Source: Ulva prolifera
Lineage: Eukaryota > Chlorophyta > Ulvophyceae > Ulvales > Ulvaceae
Direction of reading: 5' to 3'
Assembly: GCA_023078555.1 (NCBI GenBank)
Contig: CM041197.1
Coordinates: forward strand, 11,195,257-11,259,256
Length of the DNA: 64,000 bases
Below, piece by piece: positions 33,146-64,000 of this stretch (its first letter is position 1; each line of letters opens with the position of its first letter). A program made the position numbers and the translations under genes. A model generated the notes under the pieces. It saw nothing but the letters and a program-made list of their open reading frames with translations, made no database searches and had not been told where the DNA came from.

Positions 33146-35355
33146 TTGCACTATCAGTGGATCTGCACATTTCAATTGGAAAAGCGAGCAACAAACGCGC
33201 TGCACTCGTCAGAATCCCGGCCATCAGGAAACCGATACACGGGCAGGCGCAGATCCTTCGGTGCAGCTAGCTGTGGGACGGCGTCACTAATGTGACGTGC
33301 TTCGCACAAATCACACAGCAGATGCAGCTGCGAGAGGCGTTCAAGCCCTGTGCATGCATCCAGCAGAGCCTCCCCACGGTGCAAGCTAACATGCCCCTCT
33401 CCGTGATCACAGACGCACTCCAGCGCCTTGAGCTCCGCCGCCCCCTTGCCAAGCGCCGGGCCATCAAGCCATGTGTGCTGTTCCCCCATCACGTCCTCAC
33501 TACCGCCTTGCAGCGCGAAGTGCGTGAGCTCCGTCAGCTCTGCCAGCACGGTCGCGAGCCCGTCTGTGAAGCCGTAGCCGCCGGCGAGCGATACCCCAAA
33601 CAAGCAGCTGAGGTTCAGCTTGCGCAGCTGCGTGCAGGTGCGTAACACACGCATGAGCCCAGACCACGCACGGCGCACTGGTTCACGCGTGCATGAATCA
33701 TCGACGAAGTCACTCCCGTCCTCCGCCAGCACGACATTGAGGCTCGTTAACGACCCAGCGCACGGCTGTATGCAGTCGACGGAGATGCGGAGGGCCGACT
33801 CCGGGCATGCGGTCCCGACCGCCACCTCTTGCAGCGGTGGAAACGCGCTCCCCGCTGCGCATGGTGTGCCCCCGACGTCGACCGAGTCCAGGCTCTTGTT
33901 GGTGGGAGTGCGCCGTTGAAGGCGAGCCGCCGGAGCGCCGGGAAGTGCACCTGCGTCAGTTGTGCTAGGAGCGCTCGCACCGAGACCTTCGCGACTGAAG
34001 GCGTGAAGTGGATGCTGGTCAGGGCGGGCGCGGAGAGGAGCGGGAGAAGCGCGCGAGCAACACTGGCGCGTGTGCCGTCCTTGAATCCCGACTGAACGTC
34101 GTCGGAGATGGGGGCGCGCTCTTCAATCTCCAGGGTTTGGAGGGCCGGGAGTGAGGCCGGGGAAGCCGCGAGGCGTACATACCTTTGCAGAGCCAGCTGT
34201 GCGGACGCCGCGCGGCGGTTGATCACGATGGCGATGGAGAGGGTGCTGAGGGTGGGGAGGAGGGCGAGGGCGCCAGCGAGCTCCGCACAGCCGCCGGGGT
34301 GGGCATCAAAGGCGATTTCGAGGTCGACGAGGCGCGGCAGGGCCGCCAGCGCAAGGCACGTAGTGAAGTTGCGCAGCCACTGCGGCTGGAAGCGCGGGGC
34401 GGTCAGCGCGATGGAGGTGAGGGAGGGGTGCGCGGAGGCGGCGCGCGCGCAGAGGGCGCCGGTGGCGGTAGCGTACGGATGTGCCTCCACATCGGGGTCG
34501 TCATCCTCGTCAGCATACGTCGAGTCACTCAAATCCGCCACCGGAACGAGCTCAAGCGTGGTGAGGCCCGGGGCGGGCATGCTCACGGCGCCGCGCGGGC
34601 AGATGCATGAGCACCCACCTGGGCTTGCTCGGCATCTATGTTCAGGGTCCCGCCATTGGCGGCTGCGGCGATGGCGTCGGTGTGGAGCGGCGGAGGTAGG
34701 AGTGTAAGTGCAAATGCCATGGACTGGCTTGCGAGGTAGGCCAGGAAGACGCGGCGCAGGAGGTGGGGGGGGAGGCGGAGGAGGGCAGCCAGCATGACAT
34801 CTGCGCGGAGGACATCATCCCAGTCGGTCTCCACAGCCATGCCCGCGAGGGATTCTACCCATGCGGCGTTGTCCTGGTCGCCAAGCGCGTCTGGATCCGT
34901 AGCGGGCATGGCTGTTGGTATTGGCAGGAACAGCCGGGAGGGGCTAGTGCAGGAGTTCAAATGCTGCCTCCAGCAGCTGTGAGTCATACTGTGCAAGACA
35001 TTCTGAAACATTCCGGAGTCTGGCAGATTGATCATCAGGCTAATTAGCCCGGCAACTGCTACTTGGAAAAACAACCTGCGCTTCACAGCCAGGCGAACAC
35101 GTCACCGCCCACTTTGCAACCTGGTTCTGTCGACACAGCTCAACAGTCTGTACACGTGCTACTCGAATTAAATTTCACAGGTGCACACGCTGCAACGGAA
35201 GGGCCATGAATGCTTGCGCTGTTATTCTGGTGCTGCTCAGCTGGACTGCATCGCGCATCAGGCCCGCCATGTACTGCAACACCACACCTATGGACGAGTT
35301 GCAACGCTCCTCATCAACGCGTTTACGTCGTACAGCATGCGGCTGTCGTGGTGAT
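33146..35355. repeat. Segmental duplication, copy A
   Basis: The block from ATCAGTGGATCTGCA (33152) to CGGCTGTCGTGG (about 35350) is matched by 48276-57143 minus the CACTA insertion. It includes the LRR gene and the short exon upstream of it. Confidence 0.85.
33172..34909 (-). pseudogene. LRR protein gene, copy A (frameshifted)
   Basis: Leucine-rich repeat protein of the ribonuclease-inhibitor type. Read from the ATG at 34909 (MPATDPDALGD): an N-terminal helical part (MLAALLRLPPHLLRRVFLAY), a variable acidic loop (ADEDDDPDVEAHPY), then irregular LRRs (LPALQTLEIEERAPISDDV, FPALRRLAFNG, LRKLNLSCLFGVSLAGGYGF, LTELTHFALQGGSED, LERLSQLHLLCDLCEARHIS) to the stop at 33172. Compared with copy B (48295-56678), copy A has extra bases near 34580-34605 and lacks one base near 33905, so its frame breaks twice. 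Otherwise the two copies are nearly identical. Without the frameshifts the length would be about 575 residues. Both breaks could be sequencing errors, in which case copy A is an intact single-exon gene. Confidence 0.7.
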
Positions 35356-47400: not shown

Positions 47401-48275
47401 TCCTATCTGAACGGTTGACAGCCGTCAGATTCTTTTTAGCGAATAATAATACAGCGTGCAACACAGCTATCCGCATAGTCTCGTGCTAGATGCTCATTGC
47501 TTTATGTGTGCTGTGACCTGCACTCTGCCTGTGCCGTTTTCTCGCCGGTTTGCTGCCCATGCAGCGAGCCCCGCGGTTCGTCTGCCCCTGCCACCACCAG
47601 CAGAAATCCGCTGCAGTTCATTCTTTCGGCTTGCATCATTGCAGTGAAGAAAACACACGGTCGCGATGCCCACACGTGCTCCGCTGCATGTGACAACATC
47701 ATGCACTGACCACTGCGGCTGCCTTTCGGAAAATGCACACCTCCCAAATCTCAACCTACCCATCACGGGGCTCACTGACAGTCCTCCCAGACAAGGACAA
47801 TGCACAGCGCTGTGCCGTCAGAGGATCAACTCACTGAAATGGACAAAGCTATCCGCAAATGCACATCACTCGACAGAGAAACAGCCACCAGGAAACAAGT
47901 CTTCAGCAGCCACATGTTTCTTGGTGCAAGAAGCTGTGGGACAGTGCATATGGGAAGCTGCACTGTGAGACATTTGACCCAAAAAACCACTCGCAGCTGA
48001 GGCGGCGCCAGAAACCTTGCCCTCTGGGATATGGGGCTCTTTGAATGTGACGCATGCTATGGTCCACGTGACTGGGGGCCACAACCAGAAACGTCACCGG
48101 CAACTCGCTGTGCCCGCTGGTAAGCTACAAATGAAAATCAGCATGTAATCGCTGATGCTAGGCCTCACCCCCCTTAGCGACCACAACAACGCTCCAAAAA
48201 CATCACACATCGACAAGTTGCTTGCAAACAAAGGATCTCCCGACGAACCCCGTAAACAGCGCCAAGCGCTGCAAC
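47401..48275. other. Spacer
   Basis: No convincing gene. A plus-strand stretch at 47810-47990 (SEDQLTEMDKAIRKC) looks weakly protein-like. Confidence 0.35.
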
Positions 48276-48294
48276 ATCAGTGGATCTGCAAATT

Positions 48295-49578
48295 TCAATT
48301 GGAAAAGCGAGCGACAAACGCGCAGCACTCGTCAGAATCCCGGCCATCAGGAAACAGATACACGGGCAGGCGCAGATCTTCCAGTGCAGCCAGCTTCGGG
48401 ACGGCGTCACTAATGTGACGCGCTTCGCACAAATCACACAGCAGGTGCAGCTGCGAGAGGCGTTCAAGCCCCGTGCATGCATCCCGCAGACCCTCCCCGC
48501 GGTGCAAGCTCACATGCCCCTCTCCGTGATCAACACAGAGACACTCCAGCGCCTTGAGCCCCGCCACCCCCCGGCCAAGCACCGGGCCATCAAGCCATGT
48601 GTGCTGTTCCCCCATCGCGTCCTCACTGCCGCCTTGCAGCGCGAAGTGCGTGAGCTCCGTCAGCTCTGCCAGCACGGTCGCGAGCCCGTCTGTGAAGCCG
48701 TAGAAGCCGGCGAGCGATACCCCAAACAAGCAGCTGAGGTTCAGCTTGCGCAGCTGCCTGCAGGTGCGTAACACACGCATGAGCCCGGTCCATGCACGGC
48801 GCACCGAGTTACGTGTGCATGAATCGTAGACAAAGTCACTCCCGTCCTCCGCAAGCACGACAGTGAAGGTCGTCAACGACCCAGCGCACGGCTGTATGCA
48901 GTCGACGGAGATGCGGAGCGTCGACTCGGGGCATGCGCTCCCGACCGCCACATCTTGCAGCGGTGGAAACGCACTGCCCGCTACGCATGGTGTGCCCCCA
49001 ACATCGACCAAGTCCAGGCGCTTGTTGGTGGGGAGTGCGCCGTTGAAGGCGAGGCGCCGGAGCGCCGGGAAGCGCGCCTGCGTCACCTGTGCGAGGAGCG
49101 CTCGCACCGAGACCTTTGCGACTGAAGGCGTGAAGTGGATGCTGGCCAGGGCGGGCGCGGAGAGGAGCGGTAGAAGCGCGCAAGCAACACTGGCGCGTGT
49201 GCCGTCCTTGAATCCCGACTGAATGCCGTCAGAGATGGGAGCGCGCTCTTCAATCTCCAGGGTTTGGAGGGCCGGGAGTGAGGCCGGGGAAGCCGCGAGG
49301 CGTACATACCTTTGCAGGGACAGCTGTGCGGACGCCGCGCGGCGCTTGATCACGATGTCGATGGAGAGGGTGCTGAGGGTGGGGAGGAGGGCGAGGGCGC
49401 CAGCGACCTCCGCACAACCGCCGGGGTGGGCATCAAAGGTAATGCGGAGGTCGACGAGGCGCGGCGGGGCCGCCGGCGCGAGGCACGCGGCAAAGTTGCG
49501 CAGCCACTACGGCTGGAAGCGCGGGCCGGTCAGCGCGATGGAGGTGAGGGAGGGGTGCGCGGAGGCGGCGCGCGCGCA
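48295..49578 (-). pseudogene. LRR protein gene, copy B, 3' part
   Basis: An uninterrupted frame of over 350 codons runs from about 49500 down to the stop at 48295: LPTLSTLSIDIVIKRRAASA, LPALQTLEIEERAPISDGIQ, FPALRRLAFNGALPTNKRLD, LRKLNLSCLFGVSLAGFYGF, LTELTHFALQGGSEDAMGEQ, LERLSQLHLLCDLCEARHIS. Near 49508 a TAG stands where copy A has CAG (Q-P-Q-W-L becomes Q-P-stop-W-L). The gene is cut at 49578 by the CACTA insertion. This copy keeps the frame that copy A lost near 33905, so it best shows the ancestral LRR reading. It is broken by the insertion and the nonsense codon. Confidence 0.8.
49576..49578. repeat. Target-site duplication GCA (left)
   Basis: GCA before the element is repeated at 56155-56157 after it, while the empty site in copy A (about 34448-34450) has it once. 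Confidence 0.85.
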
Positions 49579-49596
49579 CACTAGGAGAATGGTGAC
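49579..49596. repeat. CACTA element left terminal inverted repeat
   Basis: CACTAGGAGAATGGTGAC; perfect match to the right end in reverse complement. Beyond 18 bp the two ends diverge. Confidence 0.95.
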
Positions 49597-49697
49597 ATTC
49601 CGGGGCGGAACCGAAGGCGTTCCGCTGACAGAGGAACGTTCCTACGAGGCTCTTGACCTTCCGCCCGCGTGCGTATGCTTCACAAGGAACGATGGTG

Positions 49698-49787
49698 GCG
49701 GAATGTCCTATGGCTTCCTTGGTGGCCGCGGAATGTCCTATGGCTTCCTTGGTGGCTGCGGAATGTCCTATGGCTTCCTCGGCAACA
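49698..49787. repeat. Three 30-bp tandem units in the CACTA left subterminal region
   Basis: Units begin GCGGAATGTCCTATGGCTTC. Being 30 bp they stay in frame (GMSYGFLGG repeated) in an 87-residue open frame, but this may be fortuitous. Confidence 0.85.
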
Positions 49788-50000
49788 GCGCTGACATGAT
49801 TGTGTGCTCTTCCATAGCGCGAGACAGGCCAATCAGTCTCCGCAGATGAAAAGGACTGGAAATCCATTGCGTACTGAGGCGAACGCAGCTGCGCACAAAT
49901 AAAAACATTACAAACGAGCACATGGAAGAAGACAAACATCAAAGAAGCTGCGCCCATGTACGTCCAGCAGTCCGACTGCTCAGAGTTTGAGCTGGAACAA

Positions 50001-50030
50001 GTTTACAAAAGAGTTAACGGAGAAGACATA
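50001..50030 (-). mobile_element. Family-T tail inside the CACTA element
   Basis: TTTACAAAAGAGTTAACGG followed by AGAAGACAT; a short, slightly diverged copy. Confidence 0.6.
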
Positions 50031-50262
50031 CATGCATGTACACCAAAGGATATTGAAAAGGATTGAGCACTCATGCCTGCAGATCCGATGCCCACGTAAG
50101 ACGAGGACGTGCCTGACAAGTTGGTGCTACTCTCCTTTAGGTGATCAAGCATGGACCGCGTTCAGAGGAGACAAATGGCGTGCTCCTGTCGCTGAGTGGT
50201 CAGTGTGGCACCGTCCATTCCGGTCTGAATCGATGCACGTGTGCCCAGTCAGCAACATCGTG

Positions 50263-50339
50263 GAATGGTCGGTGCCTCACCGACCATTACGGCCCAGTCA
50301 GCAACGTCGTGGAATGGTCGGTGCCTCACCGACCATTAC
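50263..50339. repeat. Two hairpin units (AATGGTCGGTG / CACCGACCATT)
   Basis: Two 49-bp-spaced copies of an 11-bp perfect inverted repeat with CCT loop, each preceded by CCCAGTCAGCAAC.TCGTGG. They resemble the larger hairpin array at 54468-54896. Confidence 0.85.
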
Positions 50340-50762
50340 GGGGTCGAGTCATGCATGCGCTAGTCACCACTGCAGTGTCGATGGATAGCCCACGAGCATT
50401 GCATCTCGCCATCAACGATCTCTGGAGCGAGTATAGTATCAACGGAGCATCTTCCCACAGCAATGTAAGCCAATTCATATGAGCTATTATAAGCGTCCGG
50501 TGTCTCTCGTCGGCGTCGATATCGTCTCATGATAATGCATTTCTAGTTTATTTGTATCGACTCTCTTTGTATTTCTCTGGTACTGTCCTGACGTGCAGGG
50601 AGGCTAGCTGAAGGTTGACAGCATGTGGCACGAATAATGCTTGCGATTCATTTGTATAGCGTGGCATAACATGTCTGGCGTGGGTGGTGAGGGCGCTGCA
50701 GCTGTGGCCTGTCTTTAAGGCGATGGTCAGCCTGATCCTGGCGTGGCAGCACCCAGACATGA

Positions 50763-52379
50763 AGGGGGCAGAGGGCATAACAACACAGAAACACCAAGTG
50801 CCACTGTGATTCGGCAACGATGGTCTACATCACTGTCACTCCCACTGCACCGCGTGCGGGGGCAGAGGGGGTAGCAGCACAGAACCATCAAGTGCCGGTG
50901 AGCTGCGGCAGCGATGGGCAGCATCACTATCACCCCCACTGCACCGCGTGCGGGGGCAGAGGGGGTAGCAGCACAGAACCATCAAGTGCCGGTGAGCTGC
51001 GGCAGCGATGGGCAGCATCACTGTCACCCCCACTTCACCGCGTGCGGGGGCAGAGGGGGTAGCAGCACAGAACCATCAAGTGCCGGTGAGCTGCGGCAGC
51101 GATGGGCAGCATCACTGTCACCCCCACTTCACCGCGTGCGGGGGCAGAGGGGGTAGCAGCACAGAACCATCAAGTGCCGGTGAGCTGCGGCAGCGATGGG
51201 CAGCATCACTGTCACCCCCACTTCACCGCGTGCGGGGGCAGAGGGGGTAGCAGCACAGAACCATCAAGTGCCGGTGAGCTGCGGCAGCGATGGGCAGCAT
51301 CACTGTCACCCCCACTTCACCGCGTGCGGGGGCAGAGGGGGTAGCAGCACAGAACCATCAAGTGCCGGTGAGCTGCGGCAGCGATGGGCAGCATCACTGT
51401 CACCCCCACTTCACCGCGTGCGGGGGCAGAGGGGGTAGCAGCACAGAACCATCAAGTGCCGGTGAGCTGCGGCAGCGATGGGCAGCATCACTGTCACCCC
51501 CACTTCACCGCGTGCGGGGGCAGAGGGGGTAGCAGCACAGAACCATCAAGTGCCGGTGAGCTGCGGCAGCGATGGGCAGCATCACTGTCACCCCAACTTC
51601 ACCGTGTGCGGGGGCAGAGGGGGTAACAGCACAGACAAACCAGGTGCCATTGTGCTGCGGCAACGATGGGCAGCACCACTGTCAACCCCGCTACACTGCG
51701 TGGGGGGGCAGAGGGGGTAACAGCACAGAAACACCAGGTGCCACTGTGCTGCGGCAACGATGGGCAGCACCACTGTCAACCACGCTGCACTGCGTGGGGG
51801 GGCAGAGGGGGTAACAGCACAGAAGGACCAGGTGCCACTGTGCTGCGGCAACGATGGGCAGCATCACTATCAACCCCGCTGCACTGCGTGGGAGGGCAGA
51901 GGCGGTAATTATAACAGCACAGAAACACCAGGCGCCACTGTGCTGCGGCAACGATGGGCAGCACCACTGTCAACCCCGCTACACTGCGTGGGGGGGCAGA
52001 GGGGGTAACAGCACAGAAACACCAGGTGCCACTGTGCTGCGGCAACGATGGGCAGCACCACTGTCAACCCCGCTGCACTGCGTGGGGGGGCAGAGGGGGT
52101 AACAGCACAGAAGGACCAGGTGCCACTGTGCTGCGGCAACGATGGGCAGCATCACTATCAACCCCGCTGCACTGCGTGGGAGGGCAGAGGGGGTAACAGC
52201 ACAGAAGGACCAGGTGCCACTGTGCTGCGGCAACGATGGGCAGCATCACTATGAACCCCGCTGCACTGCGTGGGAGGGCGGAGGGTATAACAGCACATGA
52301 ACACCAAGTGCCACTGTGCTGCGGCAGCGATGGGCAGCACCACTGTCAACCACGCTGCACTGCGTGGGGGGGCAGAGGA
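50763..52379. repeat. 94-bp minisatellite, about 17 units in two subfamilies
   Basis: Unit of 94 bp with landmarks CGATGGGCAGCA, ACTGTCA, GGGGGCAGAGGGGGTA, CAGCACAGAA and GTGCCxxTG. The left half (to about 51625) has the CACCCCCACTTCACCGCGTG / CAAGTGCCGGTGAGCTGCGG form and is almost identical from unit to unit. The right half has the CAACCCCGCTGCACTGCGTG / CAGGTGCCACTGTGCTGCGG form and alternates between two sub-variants (AAACACC and AAGGACC). The 94-bp length shifts frame each unit, so it is not coding. Confidence 0.95.
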
Positions 52380-54382
52380 CGCACTTTTGCCGACATCCCA
52401 ATACATTGCCGAGCCATTGCTGCTGTAGCATGCTGCGTCACAGCCATACTATGCGCCTCTGCCATCTGAGAGGGGGGATGCCACGCGACACATGGTGCCC
52501 ACCCGCACAAACACGCATGCACACCCACATTGGTACAACGTTCAACGGTACGTACTGCAGCAGCGGTGCATATACTACATTTTTGCCCGACTTGTCTTGC
52601 ATCGGAACCACTAAAACGATTTTATTACTTTACACGTGCACGTACATATGTATGGCTCATACTGCCGTTGTGTCTCTGCTTTCGGTGTCGCCAATCATCC
52701 GGGGTTCATGCTAGCGCCAGGAGGCACCATGAGATCTGTGTAATGGTGGCCTGGGGCTGTTTGGGTTGCGTGCATGGCTGGGTCCACTAACGCCACACTC
52801 ACCGCGATGCTGTTTTTGCATGCATGCGTGCATGCGATGTGTGGCGGTAACGCTCGCCATTCCAGGCGCGATCTCCATATGTGAGCTGTTAAAACCTAAA
52901 CATTGCATCAGTGAGCATAAATGTATTATCAATTCGTTGTGCTGTCTCAATGCGTTGGAGTGCAAGCCATGACATCCGTACTGCGTGTGCGGGCGCACCG
53001 ACATGATCATTGCGGCGTATCTGGTTGAACAGAGCGCCTGAAGTCTTCTACAATCTCTGTCTGTGGGTATTATTGTATAATGTGGTTTGAATCGTAGGCG
53101 GGTCTTTCACTCCCGGGTGGCGTCTAATTGTTAGCAAGCAGCAGCCGCAGGCGTCATCGCCGCTGCTCAACTTCCGACATGCTCAATTGAAGTATGCTGC
53201 AAGGTGTGACGTTTGTTTATGTCTGACGGCGCTGTCGTGGACATCACTTCCTTGCGAAGGCGCCGAAGACGCAGCTGATGTGCCGATATCGATGGTCGAG
53301 GCGCACACATTGTTCTGTTCGAGATGGCACCTGCCACCAGTTTAGAACTACTTCGTATATCATATATGCTGTAGCTGTATGCTGTAGCTTTGGATATGTT
53401 GTAGCTTCGGATGTGCGATGGCGCCCCATCGCATGAACCACGTTCACCTTGCTTGCAGAGCAGCTGCTTGAGGTGATTGCCGTCCGACTCCGTGTCTCAA
53501 ACAAACTGACATTCTTAGAGTACGCGTAAGCAGTAATGTTACTTGGAGCCTATCTACGCTTGCTTCTCTGCTGCTCGATCGAGATCATTGTGGTGCGCCT
53601 GACATTTGCGTGCACCATCGGTTGTTGACCAGGTGTGTTTTCGCAGGTCACGGGTATCAGCATCTTCCGGTATACCTACGTAGCCTACCTGAGAAACACA
53701 CACTCACGTGGAAGTTATTTCGAGCCGGCCATGGGATCGTGACATCAAGCAAAACCGCATGGCATGGAGGTGGTGCGATCCTATACCAAGTGCTTCCATT
53801 GTGGAGAGCAAACATATGGAGTATGTTCTAGATTGACTATGGTTGGACAGTACCAAACACTCTCGCGCGACTTGCATAAATCTCGGCGAACAAAGTTTAC
53901 ATGCACTGCTGCCATCGACAGTGACTTCGTGGCAACAAGCAGGCGCCCAAACATCGCATTTGTGTGTGCACACGTGCGTCCAAGTTTGACCTCGTTAGTA
54001 CCCGCAGGGCGTCTATAAGCATGCATGGGATCAAAACTGTAAGACAAGGCAGCCAAAGGATTAAGAGGACCGGAATATGTCGACATCAGTGAGGGCTTAG
54101 AGAATTATCCGGCGCGTTCCTTGTTTGAGTGCGTTGTGTTGGGGTTGCAATCCTTCGAGTGTATACATGTATCATTTAGCTGCGTACGTGGTGCCTCCAC
54201 GTGGTGTCCTGTCTCGCCTTGATAGCTGATGCACATTGCATTTCCCAAGAGGCACGCGGAATACATCTGCACCATCGTAAGTTCGTTTAGTGTTCTTCTG
54301 CATGCCTGCAAGAGCGGGCAGTCCCGCACCGTTCGGTTTCAAGAGTCCGCGAGAGCGGATGGTGGAGCACCGTCCATTCGTA
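52380..54382. other. Interior CACTA sequence without recognised gene
   Basis: No transposase motif or long frame was seen on either strand. AT-rich TGTAGCT repeats lie near 53345-53400. Confidence 0.45.
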
Positions 54383-54420
54383 GTTACAAAAGAGTGAACG
54401 AGAGAAGAACAACACTGAAA
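54383..54420 (-). mobile_element. Family-T tail inside the CACTA element
   Basis: Begins TTACAAAAGAGTGAACGAG and ends AACACTGAAA, immediately before the hairpin array. Confidence 0.6.
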
Positions 54421-54467
54421 TTCTTAGTCGCCACGCCGCGCATGGTTCGTCACATGCATGACTACTG

Positions 54468-54896
54468 GAATGGTTGGTGCCCCACCAACCATTCCGGGGA
54501 GCCTGGATCATGACATATGTCATGCATATGCATGACTGCCCGAATGGTTGGTGGCCCACCAACCATTCTGGGGAGCCTGCATCGTGACATGCATGACTGC
54601 CCGAATGGTTGGTGGCCCACCAACCATTCCGGAGAGCCTGGATCATGACATATGTCATGCATATGCATGACTGCCCGAATGGTTGGTGGCCCACCAACCA
54701 TTCTTGTGCGCCGCGCCGTGCATGGATGCTTACATGCATGACTTCCCGAATGGTTGGTGGCCCACCAACCATTCTGGGGAGCCTGCATCGTGACATGCAT
54801 GACTGCCCGAATGGTTGGTGGCCCACCAACCATTCCGGGGAGCCTGGATCATGACATGCATGACTGCCCGAATGGGTGGTGGCCCACCAACCATTC
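54468..54896. repeat. Array of seven hairpin units
   Basis: A 27-28-bp inverted repeat (GAATGGTTGGTGG and its complement around one base) occurs at 54468, 54542, 54603, 54678, 54748, 54809 and 54870, spaced 61-77 bp. Spacers carry GCATGACTGCCC and GGGGAGCCTG or TGCGCCGCGCC. Five of the seven hairpins are perfect in the 13-bp arms; the first has a variant loop and the last one G-T change. Confidence 0.92.
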
Positions 54897-54944
54897 TCAT
54901 GCGCCGCGCCCCACATTCCCTGACAGACCCATCTGATGTAGACG

Positions 54945-55265
54945 TTGTGCTACTGCAAAACAAACACATTGGGCAACAACGTACCAGTGCGCGTGAACGA
55001 GCGCAAGCCACTGACACATCACCTATCCATGCAGTTGTCCAGAATCGGAGCGAGGACTGCTTACGGCGAGGGCACGATGAAGCCGGCCGCGCAGTGGGCA
55101 CAAGAAGACGGACTGTATGTGGCTGACTACGAGTACTTCAAGAAATTCATCCTTGGCGCACTAAAAACGGAGGGGACATCGGAATCTCCGTTGCATCCCA
55201 CCCATAAGAGGAGCCAGAAGGTTGGCCTCGCGTTGCAGATTACCCGGAAGAAGTTTGTCGATTAG
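54945..55265 (+). CDS. ORF within the CACTA element
   Basis: 106 codons. The better half reads MQLSRIGARTAYGEGTMKPA, AQWAQEDGLYVADYEYFKKF, ILGALKTEG and ends KKFVD-stop. It is protein-like in composition and could be a captured host exon or an element-encoded peptide. It matches no transposase motif I know. The start codon is uncertain. Confidence 0.35.
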   Translation: MCYCKTNTLGNNVPVRVNERKPLTHHLSMQLSRIGARTAYGEGTMKPAAQWAQEDGLYVADYEYFKKFILGALKTEGTSESPLHPTHKRSQKVGLALQITRKKFVD

Positions 55266-55635
55266 TTGTATACCAACGTGGGCTCGGAAAGAAACTGTAC
55301 ACATGCGGTGATCGTGATTAAATGTATGAGTGGAGTATATGACATGTTAGAGGTGGCACTACATGTGATCGTAGTATCATCGTTCCTTATGGACATGATG
55401 AGGGCACCCAAGGTGACGAGATATCAATGCAAGCAATGTCTATGATATGCCTATACAAGCCATGACCACCCCTGCCTACGAACTCGTGTGAACACATCAA
55501 TAAATCTGTCTTGTTCCGCAATCACGGTGTACAGTTGATGACATGCTGCTTGTATATGCACTCGAAACTGCCTTTCCCGCAGGACCGTATGTCCTGTGCA
55601 CTAATCGCGATTCTCTGTCGAAAACGTGGTGCACA

Positions 55636-55698
55636 TGTTACAATAGAGTGAATGGGAGAGAACAAACATTGAGACCGAGTTGCATCCGAATCAACGGC
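55636..55698 (-). mobile_element. Family-T tail inside the CACTA element, longer copy
   Basis: TTACAATAGAGTGAATGGGA continuing through ACAAACATTGAGACCGAG to CCGAATCAACGGC. Imperfect direct repeats (ACGTGGTGCACATGT before, ACGTGGCACGCATGT after) may be a decayed target duplication. Confidence 0.6.
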
Positions 55699-56154
55699 AA
55701 CCTACACGTGGCACGCATGTAAAGAAGGCCTTGATGACCTCACCACTTACGTAATCTGTCTCCAGCGCATCCGGGCAGAGAGTAACCTCTCACGAACCAT
55801 CCTGTTCTTCCAGGCTTCCGGGAGGCTTCCGCAAGGCTCTGCCGGAACGTTATCGGATCCGTAACCATTCCGAAATTTTAATCATTCTTCCTCGAACAGT
55901 CCTCTGGAAGCATTGCGGATCCTTCGCACGTTCCGGCATCACTCCGGAAACGTTCCGGCGGAACCCCCACGTGGAGTGCCCGTTGAAACACCCCGTCCGG
56001 AACGCTCGCGGAACTTCCGTCCACAATCCGGGCTGCCTTCCGGGCGCTCCGCCAACGGTCCTTTCGCCGTTCCGGGGGCTCCGCCACGCATCCGCCCCTC
56101 TTCCGCGAGCCGTCCTCGCACGTTCCTCACCACCACGTCACCATTCTCCTAGTG

Positions 56155-56678
56155 GCAGAGGGCGCCGGTGGCGGAAGCGTACAGATGTGCCTCCACATCG
56201 GGGTCGTCATCCTCGTCAGCACACGGCGAGTCCCTCGAATCCGCCACCGGAACGAGCTCAAGCGTGGTGAGGCCCGGGGCGGGCATGCTCACGGCGGGCA
56301 GATGCATGAGCACCTGGGCTTGCTCGGCATCTATGTTCAGGGTCCCGCCATTGGCGGCTGCGGCGATGACGGCGGTGTGGAGCGGCGGCGGTAGGAGTGT
56401 GAATGCAAACGCCATGGACCGGCTGGCGAGGTAGGCCAGGAGGATGCGGGGAGGCGGGGGAGGGCGGCCAGCATGACAGCTGCGCGGAGGATATCATCCC
56501 AGTCGGTCACCAAAGCCATGCCCGCGCGGGATTCTACCCATGCGGCGTTACCCTGGTCGCCAAGCGCGTCTGCAACCTGCACGAGTTGCAGCCACTTTGA
56601 GGGGCATGAGAACTTATCACAGAGGAGGTGCATCGAGTGTGTTGTGTCCCGGTCTGTGTCTGGATCCGTAGCGGGCAT
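56155..56678 (-). pseudogene. LRR protein gene, copy B, 5' part
   Basis: From the ATG at 56678 (MPATDPDTDRDTT) through WLQLVQVADALGDQGNAAW, AMAFAFTLLPPPLHTAVIAA, GGTLNIDAEQAQVLMHLPAV and the acidic DEDDDPDVEAHLY loop, in one frame, to the CACTA right end. The 29-codon segment between MPATDPD and ALGDQ is absent from copy A. This side lacks the frameshift that breaks copy A near 34590. Confidence 0.75.
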
Positions 56679-56812
56679 GGCTGTTGGTATTGGCAGGAAC
56701 AGCCGGGAGGGGCTAGTGCAAGAGTGCGAATGCTGTCTCCAGCAGCTGTGAGTCATACTGTGCAAGACATTCTGAAACATTCCAAAGTCTGGCAGATTGA
56801 TCATCAGGCTAA

Positions 56813-57124
56813 TTAGCCCGGCAACTGCTGCTTGGAAAAACAACCTGCGCTGCACAGCCAGGCGAACACGTCACGGCTCAACTCCGCAACCTGGTTCTGT
56901 CGACACAGCTCAACAGTCTGTACACGTGCCACACAAATTAAATTTCGCAGGTGCGCATGTTGCAACGGAAGGGCCATGAATGCTTGTGCTGTTATTCTGG
57001 TGCTGCTCAGCTGGACTGCATCGCGCATTAGGCCCGCCATGTATTGCAGCACCACACCTATGGACGAGTTGCAACGCTTCTCATAGACAAGCATGGGCAT
57101 CAGCGCATTTATGTCGTACAGCAT
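56813..57124 (-). pseudogene. Duplicate of the short exon upstream of LRR copy A
   Basis: MLYDINALMPMLVYEKRCNS, YMAGLMRDAVQLSSTRITAQ, AFMALPLQHAHLRNLICVAR and QTVELCRQNQVAELSRDVFA in one frame. It corresponds to 35100-35340. The partner first exon (35387-35754) is missing, so the duplicated unit lost its 5' half. Confidence 0.5.
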
Positions 57125-63573: not shown

Positions 63574-64000
63574 TCACACAATGTCGAGGTCTAAGGCGAA
63601 GTCGCCGCAGAGCAAGTCGCAAAACGCAAGGCACGCACGGGAGTCACGGCCATCAGGAAACAGGGTCTCAGGCAGGCGCAACTCCTTCAGCGCACGCAGC
63701 TTGGGGATGGTGTTGATGATGTGATTCACGTCGCACACATCGCACAGCAGTTCCAGGTGCGACAGCCGCTCCAGCCCCACGCAAGCGTCCAGCAGAGCCT
63801 CATGGTGGCCAAACACCAGGGTCCCCTCTCCATCATTGACGCACAGGCATTCTAACGCCTTCAGGCCCGCTATTCCCCGGCCGAGCACGCGGGCATCAAG
63901 CCAGGTGCGGTCGTCCCCCGTTACGTCATCGCGCCCGGCTTGCAGCGTCAAATGCGTGAGCTCCGTCAGCTCGAGCAGCGCATTCGTCAGCTCCGCTGAG
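63574..64000 (-). CDS. LRR protein, third family member, 3' part (gene continues past the window)
   Basis: One open frame from the window edge to the stop at 63574: LTELTHLTLQAGRDD-like start, TWLDARVLGRGIAGLKALEC, GLERLSHLELLCDVCDVNHI, LRALKELRLPETLFPDGRDS, then a distinct C-terminus ending FALDLDIV. It aligns with the C-terminal third of LRR copies A and B but is clearly diverged, especially after PDGRDS. No break is seen in the visible part, so this may be the functional member. Confidence 0.75.
   Translation of the reverse strand, partial: SAELTNALLELTELTHLTLQAGRDDVTGDDRTWLDARVLGRGIAGLKALECLCVNDGEGTLVFGHHEALLDACVGLERLSHLELLCDVCDVNHIINTIPKLRALKELRLPETLFPDGRDSRACLAFCDLLCGDFALDLDIV

Follow-up and report, generated by a model that had tools for sequence, protein, structure and literature searches.

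The question raised by this locus is how one of two LRR gene copies came to be split by 6,576 bp of DNA, and what could have put it there. In the window (the whole stretch of Ulva prolifera DNA analysed here, 64,000 nucleotides), a first-pass annotation made from the letters alone had read the interruption as a CACTA transposon caught in a duplicated LRR gene. Its perfect 18-bp ends starting CACTAGG, its exact length and its GCA duplication were all given correctly to the base (Table 1). We conclude with high confidence that the interruption is a cut-and-paste transposon, non-autonomous and of the CACTA/EnSpm kind, which would have been moved in trans by a likely transposase source in the same genome. 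Overall, the family is new, whereas the kind of transposon is known. A DNA transposon insertion for which the family, the likely enzyme source and an empty site are all found in a single genome makes a clean case.

Table 1. Features of the element, its target gene and the empty paralogue (window coordinates)
Feature	Position	Strand	Basis
LRR copy A, empty-site paralogue, reading frame broken	33147..35314	-	alignment to copy B
Empty site, single GCA in copy A	34449..34451	.	alignment overlap
LRR copy B, low-coordinate side of insertion, in-frame stop 49507-49509	48270..49578	-	
TSD, left copy, GCA	49576..49578	.	sequence
Non-autonomous CACTA-like transposon, 6,576 bp	49579..56154	+	exact ends, flanks, paired-end survey
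18-bp TIR, L-type end, then ATTCCGG	49579..49596	+	exact CACTAGGAGAATGGTGAC
Left end, TTCCG-enriched, 91% identity to ends of long elements F19/F21	49579..49897	+	
30-bp tandem repeat, 2.7 copies	49698..49779	+	repeat finding
49-bp tandem repeat, 2 copies, AATGGTCGGTG-type palindrome in each	50243..50341	+	repeat finding, palindrome pattern
94-bp tandem array, 17.1 copies	50764..52378	+	repeat finding
Interior stretch outside main arrays	52390..54280	+	genome-wide match
Array of 27-bp palindromes, GAATGGTTGGTGGCCCACCAACCATTC type, 6 by strict pattern	54447..54897	+	
Further stretch, ~78% identity to F19/F21, most of palindrome array inside	54452..55227	+	
Right end, TTCCG- and GTTCCGG-enriched, ~83% identity to F19/F21	55237..56154	+	
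18-bp TIR, R-type end, then GTGGTGGTGAGGAA	56137..56154	-	exact CACTAGGAGAATGGTGAC
TSD, right copy, GCA	56155..56157	.	sequence
LRR copy B, high-coordinate side of insertion	56155..57084	-	

Copy B aligns to copy A in three blocks (48270-49578 at 92.7%, 56155-56572 at 88.5% and 56658-57084 at 94.1% identity), the first two of which overlap on copy A by exactly 3 bp, the GCA at 34449-34451. The halves of copy B are thus joined in copy A around a single GCA, as the first-pass annotation had proposed. A second uninterrupted paralogous site, with 3 mismatches, lies just beyond the window (C2:11260130-11260166). Such empty paralogues are evidence of insertion, not of excision. The LRR family gave 36 matches (E <= 1e-6), 27 of them inside open frames of 555-695 aa, and 31 of the 36 form a tandem cluster on C2 at 11.23-11.53 Mb. 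Besides the insertion, copy B carries an in-frame stop and copy A a frame break. Neither copy is therefore intact, and we do not claim that the insertion killed a working LRR gene: the split of copy B and the empty site in copy A stand, but the disruption of a functional gene does not.

When the window was searched for CACTAGGAGAATGGTGAC with up to 3 mismatches, the two TIRs were recovered, against a mean of 0.05 expected, and no third site was found. TTCCG is over-represented at the left and the right end alike (7 occurrences against 0.7 expected, and 14 against 2.0 expected). The En/Spm-like GTTCCGG words previously ascribed to the subterminal DNA hold for the right end (5 in 420 bp) but not for the left (0 in 320 bp). 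The description of the interior as almost entirely structured repeats was too strong, since clear arrays cover about 2.3 of 6.6 kb, or about 35% of the element (Tandem Repeats Finder). Among 11 family members read, the size of the 94-bp array ranges by a coarse count from roughly 7 to 29 units. The interior stretch outside the main arrays has 23 near-full copies genome-wide at 95-100% identity, the window copy included (the 22 others at 95-99%).

The ends and their pairing were then surveyed over the source assembly (88.9 Mb, 44 contigs), whose split genes for the RuBisCO small subunit indicate the green lineage. This genome search, which had been suggested as a check, returned 125 typed ends that form 46 paired elements, transposase-bearing ones included, and 33 of the 125 ends are without a partner. 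Identical 3-bp flanks mark 36 of the 46 pairs and are missing from the other 10; when ends were mismatched as a control, 38 of 2070 pairs had them. Both 18-bp ends are perfect in 44 pairs, with one changed base in one end in the remaining 2. With up to 2 mismatches the 18-mer occurs at 263 places genome-wide; the 100 among the matches listed are all exact. Variant ends (GTTGAC/TTTGAC) occur at just 2 places and so do not account for the 18-mer matches in excess of the 125 typed ends. As some of the flanks had a palindromic look, a palindromic target preference was also considered, and set aside: over the 36 sites, the first position shows no more than a weak signal (p 0.07) and positions further out show none.

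Among 16 elements compared together with their 150-bp flanks, related flanks were confined to L011 and F19, two elements of one local repeat separated by about 13 kb, and no flank matches any interior among the same 16. Similarity between copies thus does not run beyond the CACTA ends, bar this neighbouring pair, and the element has many companions with the same ends. These observations bear on a different reading, in which the 6.6-kb stretch would be a segmental duplication or an assembly junction with inverted ends by chance. Misassembly is possible in a tandem LRR cluster, but the exact 3-bp duplication, the dozens of elements that share these ends, the unrelated flanks and the empty paralogues already contradict this reading, and we give it almost no weight.

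The transposon of the window, which as first noted has no transposase of its own, is a member of a young non-autonomous family whose members are mostly 6.0-8.8 kb long. Compared with L011 and L015, it is 99.4-99.6% identical in about 1 kb at either end, whereas the LRR copies A and B diverge by 6-11% in their three blocks. Because the copies are highly identical, recent movement is suggested, and strain comparisons could show it directly.

Candidates for the autonomous partner, for which the first-pass annotation had recommended a search, were found among long relatives of 17-18 kb. The five that we read have 18-bp ends identical to those of the window element, which has both its ends in common with F19 and F21, and these long elements encode a transposase-like protein. 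The gene model comprises 1,203 aa and seven GT-AG introns, and its frame is open over 1,203 codons in two of the five elements and broken in the other three. An eighth intron in the F19 model was rejected as an artificial bridge over the frame break of that copy, as F21 and F27 read through. The catalytic residues were assigned by inspection: three families show a D, D, C(2)C layout and four show H(4)H with E; in the 1,203-aa protein and its relatives, C(2)C and H(3-4)H fall after the second D and before E. Between F21 and F23, a broken copy, dN is 0.016 and dS 0.073. With Pfam, the protein gave no match to Transposase_21 (PF02992). A PF02992 profile search of the genome gave no match either, but it proves little because none of 14 controls was detected. 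No solved structure matched the transposase core, and no relative of the protein was encoded on viral contigs. DUF4218 gave a weak match, below cut-off (E 0.0011 to 0.022), always at the H..E stretch and in four of four families.

Since the Pfam CACTA model does not reach a protein this diverged, we considered whether the element should be placed outside CACTA/EnSpm proper, in some other cut-and-paste superfamily whose ends resemble CACTA (such as Plavaka or a separate CMC branch), which we judge unlikely. The CACTA..TAGTG ends and 3-bp duplications fit EnSpm, and the weak match to DUF4218, a neighbour of Transposase_21 in plant CACTA proteins, also speaks against the alternative. In its favour, the layout with C(2)C and H(3-4)H is described for Plavaka as well as for EnSpm, Mirage, Chapaev and Transib (PMC12730594). 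However, PlavakaB is described with CATCA ends and 2- or 3-bp duplications, and PlavakaA with TGT ends and 2 bp (PMC12730594), whereas the termini of the window element are CACTA. KDZ (Zisupton) elements have an 8-bp TSD in the same account (PMC12730594), against 3 bp here. Moreover, CACTA elements with Ulp1 have been described in grapevine and rice (PMC2528002), which again favours CACTA/EnSpm.

A second transposase family (63-71% identity, more than 50 among the matches listed) might instead be the main mobiliser. Five loci hold relatives, at 74-76%, of part of the interior of the window element, and at one of these loci, on C2, a transposase exon of 66% identity lies about 3 kb away; yet the identical 18-bp ends and the subterminal DNA common to the window element and the long elements read here make this rather improbable. 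We retain the 17-18 kb elements as the likely source. Their 1,203-aa protein would bind the 18-bp ends and the TTCCG-rich subterminal DNA of long and short elements alike, excise them and insert them with a 3-bp stagger, and the window copy would have moved in trans into the LRR copy after the LRR duplication.

The surprise in the long relatives is an unusual, invertible module. This gene module of about 8 kb includes an Ulp1-like gene (match to Ulp1 peptidase C48 at 9.9e-10 with hand-joined exons) and is bounded by arrays of a 27-bp palindrome, made of 13-bp arms around one base and present in 497 exact copies in the genome. The module is inverted in one lineage of long elements, one copy of which keeps the ancestral orientation, that of all other families. 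The inversion joints adjoin or fall within the palindrome arrays, and one long element is chimeric, with a change of parent at such an array. Orientation was counted from 96 Ulp1 matches and 89 transposase rows among the matches listed, with listed 41-55% rows omitted, and only transposase exons upstream within 9 kb of an Ulp1 match were taken; 22 of the 96 had no such exon and were left uncounted (class I 3, class II 3, others 16). The rows are matches, so that an element split in two counts twice (e.g. C7:587543 and C7:587716). Tentatively, and with somewhat less than even confidence, we suggest that the palindrome arrays are joints at which recombination inverts the module and exchanges it among lineages, with the result that these CACTA elements reshuffle accessory genes. 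If the arrays do have this role, they would illustrate a way for large CACTA elements to swap such genes and turn them around.

Maize En/Spm comprises large autonomous and smaller non-autonomous members. With En/Spm and dSpm the Ulva family shares CACTA ends, 3-bp duplications and subterminal clusters of short words (PMC8978399, PMC4158355); it differs by a transposase diverged beyond the Pfam Transposase_21 model, by its 94-bp and palindrome arrays and by an Ulp1 gene whose module occurs both ways round. Plavaka resembles the Ulva family in the layout of its DDE transposase, including C(2)C and H(3-4)H, but is described with TGT or CATCA termini (PMC12730594). Chenopodium Jozin resembles the Ulva family in its CACTA ends and its subterminal 10-20 bp units, direct and inverted, but has a plant host, and 'palindrom' occurs 0 times in the text of PMC8978399. 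Finally, the CACTA-ULP elements of grapevine and rice likewise combine a CACTA-type element with an Ulp1-like peptidase region (PMC2528002). For Mutator-like families, the same paper shows Ulp1 regions that point either way with respect to the transposase, so a difference in orientation from family to family is in itself no novelty (PMC2528002). In CACTA-ULP, the rice proteins are named with both domains (PMC2528002), whereas in Ulva the Ulp1 gene lies in a downstream module that is inverted in one lineage.

The genome screened comprised 88.9 Mb in 44 contigs; its nuclear genes for the RuBisCO small subunit are split, a hint that it belongs to the green lineage. Within the window, the 18-bp end CACTAGGAGAATGGTGAC occurs at two exact places, one on each strand, where 0.05 matches would be expected by chance at up to 3 mismatches. 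The first-pass annotation had read from the sequence an insertion of 6,576 bp with a 3-bp duplication, and both values were recovered: the element measures 6,576 bp and is flanked by GCA at both sides. The empty site proposed for LRR copy A was also found, as a single GCA in joined sequence, and the same site is likewise uninterrupted in another LRR paralogue just outside the window. The sole open frame of at least 220 aa in the element sits over an array of a 27-bp palindrome.

The interrupted gene belongs to a family with 36 matches genome-wide at E <= 1e-6, of which 31 lie in one region of contig C2 and 27 are contained in open frames of 555-695 aa. This region is a large LRR-like gene cluster with members on both strands, most of which consist of one open frame, about 555-695 aa long. 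The LRR assignment comes from how leucines are spaced in the translated sequence, the Pfam match being weak and below cut-off (E 0.025). Insertion aside, copy B contains an in-frame stop and the reading frame of copy A is broken (longest frames in the family search, 403 and 355 aa respectively), so the insertion may or may not have disrupted a functional gene. It is probably younger than the LRR duplication, since the window copy shows 99.4 to 99.6% identity with two other short elements (L011 and L015) across roughly 1 kb at either end, whereas the sequences of LRR copies A and B diverge by 6-11%.

Coordinates of the window element, the LRR genes and related features
Feature	Sequence	Position	Remark
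Window	C2	11195257-11259256	
Window element	window	49579-56154	
18-bp end	window	49579-49596	strand +
18-bp end	window	56137-56154	strand -
LRR copy A	window	33147-35314	cluster member
Empty site (GCA)	window	34449-34451	in copy A
LRR copy B	window	48270-49578 + 56155-57084	cluster member (48270-57084)
In-frame stop	window	49507-49509	in copy B
Further LRR-like member	window	63641-63972	cluster member
LRR-like cluster	C2	11.23-11.53 Mb	
Interior relative	C2	7367670-7368921	one of five loci
Longer paired element	C4	6350636-6372608	
Longer paired element	C2	10747840-10762927	
Longer paired element	C1	12332336-12342944	
Class II exception	C2	3718496-3736605	module part read
Palindrome arrays	F25	8.59-8.75 and 16.65-17.01 kb	module joints
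Palindrome array	F27	8.56-8.72 kb	

The genome search suggested by the first-pass annotation returned 62 L-type ends (terminal repeat then ATTCCGG, up to 2 mismatches) and 63 R-type ends (terminal repeat then GTGGTGGTGAGGAA, up to 3 mismatches), with 0 matches for the reversed-pattern controls. At up to 2 mismatches, the 18-bp end alone is present at 263 places, 125 of them typed by subterminal sequence. Joining neighbouring ends of opposite type no more than 60 kb apart gave 46 paired elements, 6.0 to 45 kb long; 33 ends remained without a partner. Both ends were checked in all pairs, and identical 3-bp flanks were observed for 36 of the 46, versus 38 of 2070 mismatched control pairs. Full sequences were obtained for 16 paired elements, plus the module part of one more. 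Similarity does not run past the ends: the 150-bp flanks of the 16 are mutually unrelated, except for L011 and the long element F19, located about 13 kb from each other within a local repeat. In five of the 16 (L010, L011, L012, L013 and F19, read as L019/L020), left and right flanks are alike, so that these elements sit inside local repeats. Interior sequence of the 6-9 kb family also occurs in three longer paired elements, some of which may therefore be nested or composite.

Eleven non-autonomous elements, 6.0-8.8 kb long and with the window copy among them, were read from end to end. All contain 94-bp-type units (roughly 7 to 29 each, by a coarse count) and a single cluster of palindromes (5 to 23 units), whose distance to the R end is 1.25 to 2.8 kb. 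Two stand out by a diverged end, with 56% identity to the window copy at the R end of L014 and 58% at the L end of L018. For an interior stretch of 1,891 bp, the genome contains 23 near-full copies at 95-100%, counting the window's own; some fall within longer paired elements. Outside the family, five loci show 74-76% relatives of part of the window element's interior; one of them has a transposase exon of 66% identity some 3 kb away.

Five long elements of 16.9 to 18.2 kb (F19, F21, F23, F25 and F27) have the same 18-bp ends as the window element and cover 28-33% of it. With F19 and F21, the window element's first 319 bp are 91% identical, its last 918 bp about 83%, and another 776 bp about 78%. 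All five carry on one strand a transposase-like gene, with seven introns (all GT-AG). Its 1,203 codons are open in F21 and F27, the frame is broken in F19 and F25, and F23 has a stop. These elements are the likely source of enzyme for the window element. By inspection, the putative catalytic residues are GGDGAQLY (first D), VEGDIPW (second D) and LEFWIER (E), and the protein also has RACFRC, C(2)C, and KLHIAAWH, H(4)H; C(2)C and H(3-4)H are described as a mark common to EnSpm and relatives (PMC12730594). Both D and the C(2)C are also present in two other transposase families (L091, L092), and the H..E stretch in these and L093. DUF4218 matches this stretch weakly, below its cut-off, with E values of 0.0011 to 0.022 across four families, and Pfam gave no Transposase_21 match in the protein. 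For the last exon, dN is 0.016 and dS 0.073 between F21 and F23, and pN 0.29 and pS 0.78 between F21 and L091, a pattern consistent with the protein having been under selection in the past. One transposase exon has at least 159 genomic matches; those listed include 25 that span the entire exon at 93-99%, over 50 in the 63-71% range and others more distant. Within this second family at 63-71% (example L091), ten of the more than 50 listed matches share one identical score, which suggests near-identical copies, perhaps from a recent burst.

Downstream of the transposase, the long elements enclose a module of about 8 kb that encodes an Ulp1-like peptidase: its exons, joined by hand, match C48 at 9.9e-10, and among solved structures SENP1 scores best, at 0.0015. 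The version in F23, F25 and F27 (class II) is 60 to 67% identical to that in F19 and F21 (class I), and inverted. We compared the orientation of all 96 Ulp1 matches genome-wide with that of a transposase exon upstream within 9 kb, which 22 lacked. Among paired matches, both genes point in the same direction in 15 of 15 class I and 50 of 50 from other families, and in opposite directions in 8 of 9 class II. The class II exception has the other orientation; blocks of it match F25 with 86-92% identity, and just one of its joints carries an array. The F25 joints adjoin or lie inside palindrome arrays. F27 is a chimera: up to 8.5 kb it matches F19 and F21 at about 96-100% (at 8.0-8.5 kb, 99.8-100% versus 94.8% to F25); this lead stops in the 8.5-9.0 kb step, where F27 has an array, and beyond that array it tracks F25 at 96-99%. 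In the long relatives (L019-L028, L094), the module is inverted in one lineage and has been swapped between lineages, and its joints lie at or adjoin palindrome arrays. The palindrome has 497 exact genomic matches (reversed control, 0). Among the first 100 listed, 92 are on C1, 80 of them within paired elements covering 1.4% of C1 and the other 12 within about 12 kb of unpaired ends.

No description of an invertible CACTA module was found in titles and abstract openings of the open-licence literature, which is weak evidence of absence in print. CACTA elements with Ulp1 are described in grapevine and rice, and Mutator-like families carry Ulp1 in either orientation (PMC2528002); for Mutator-like elements of Arabidopsis, a link has been drawn between Ulp1 and evasion of silencing (PMC13317346). 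The range of CACTA elements is given as algae to animals (PMC4158355). We therefore regard the window element as a new family of a kind already known.
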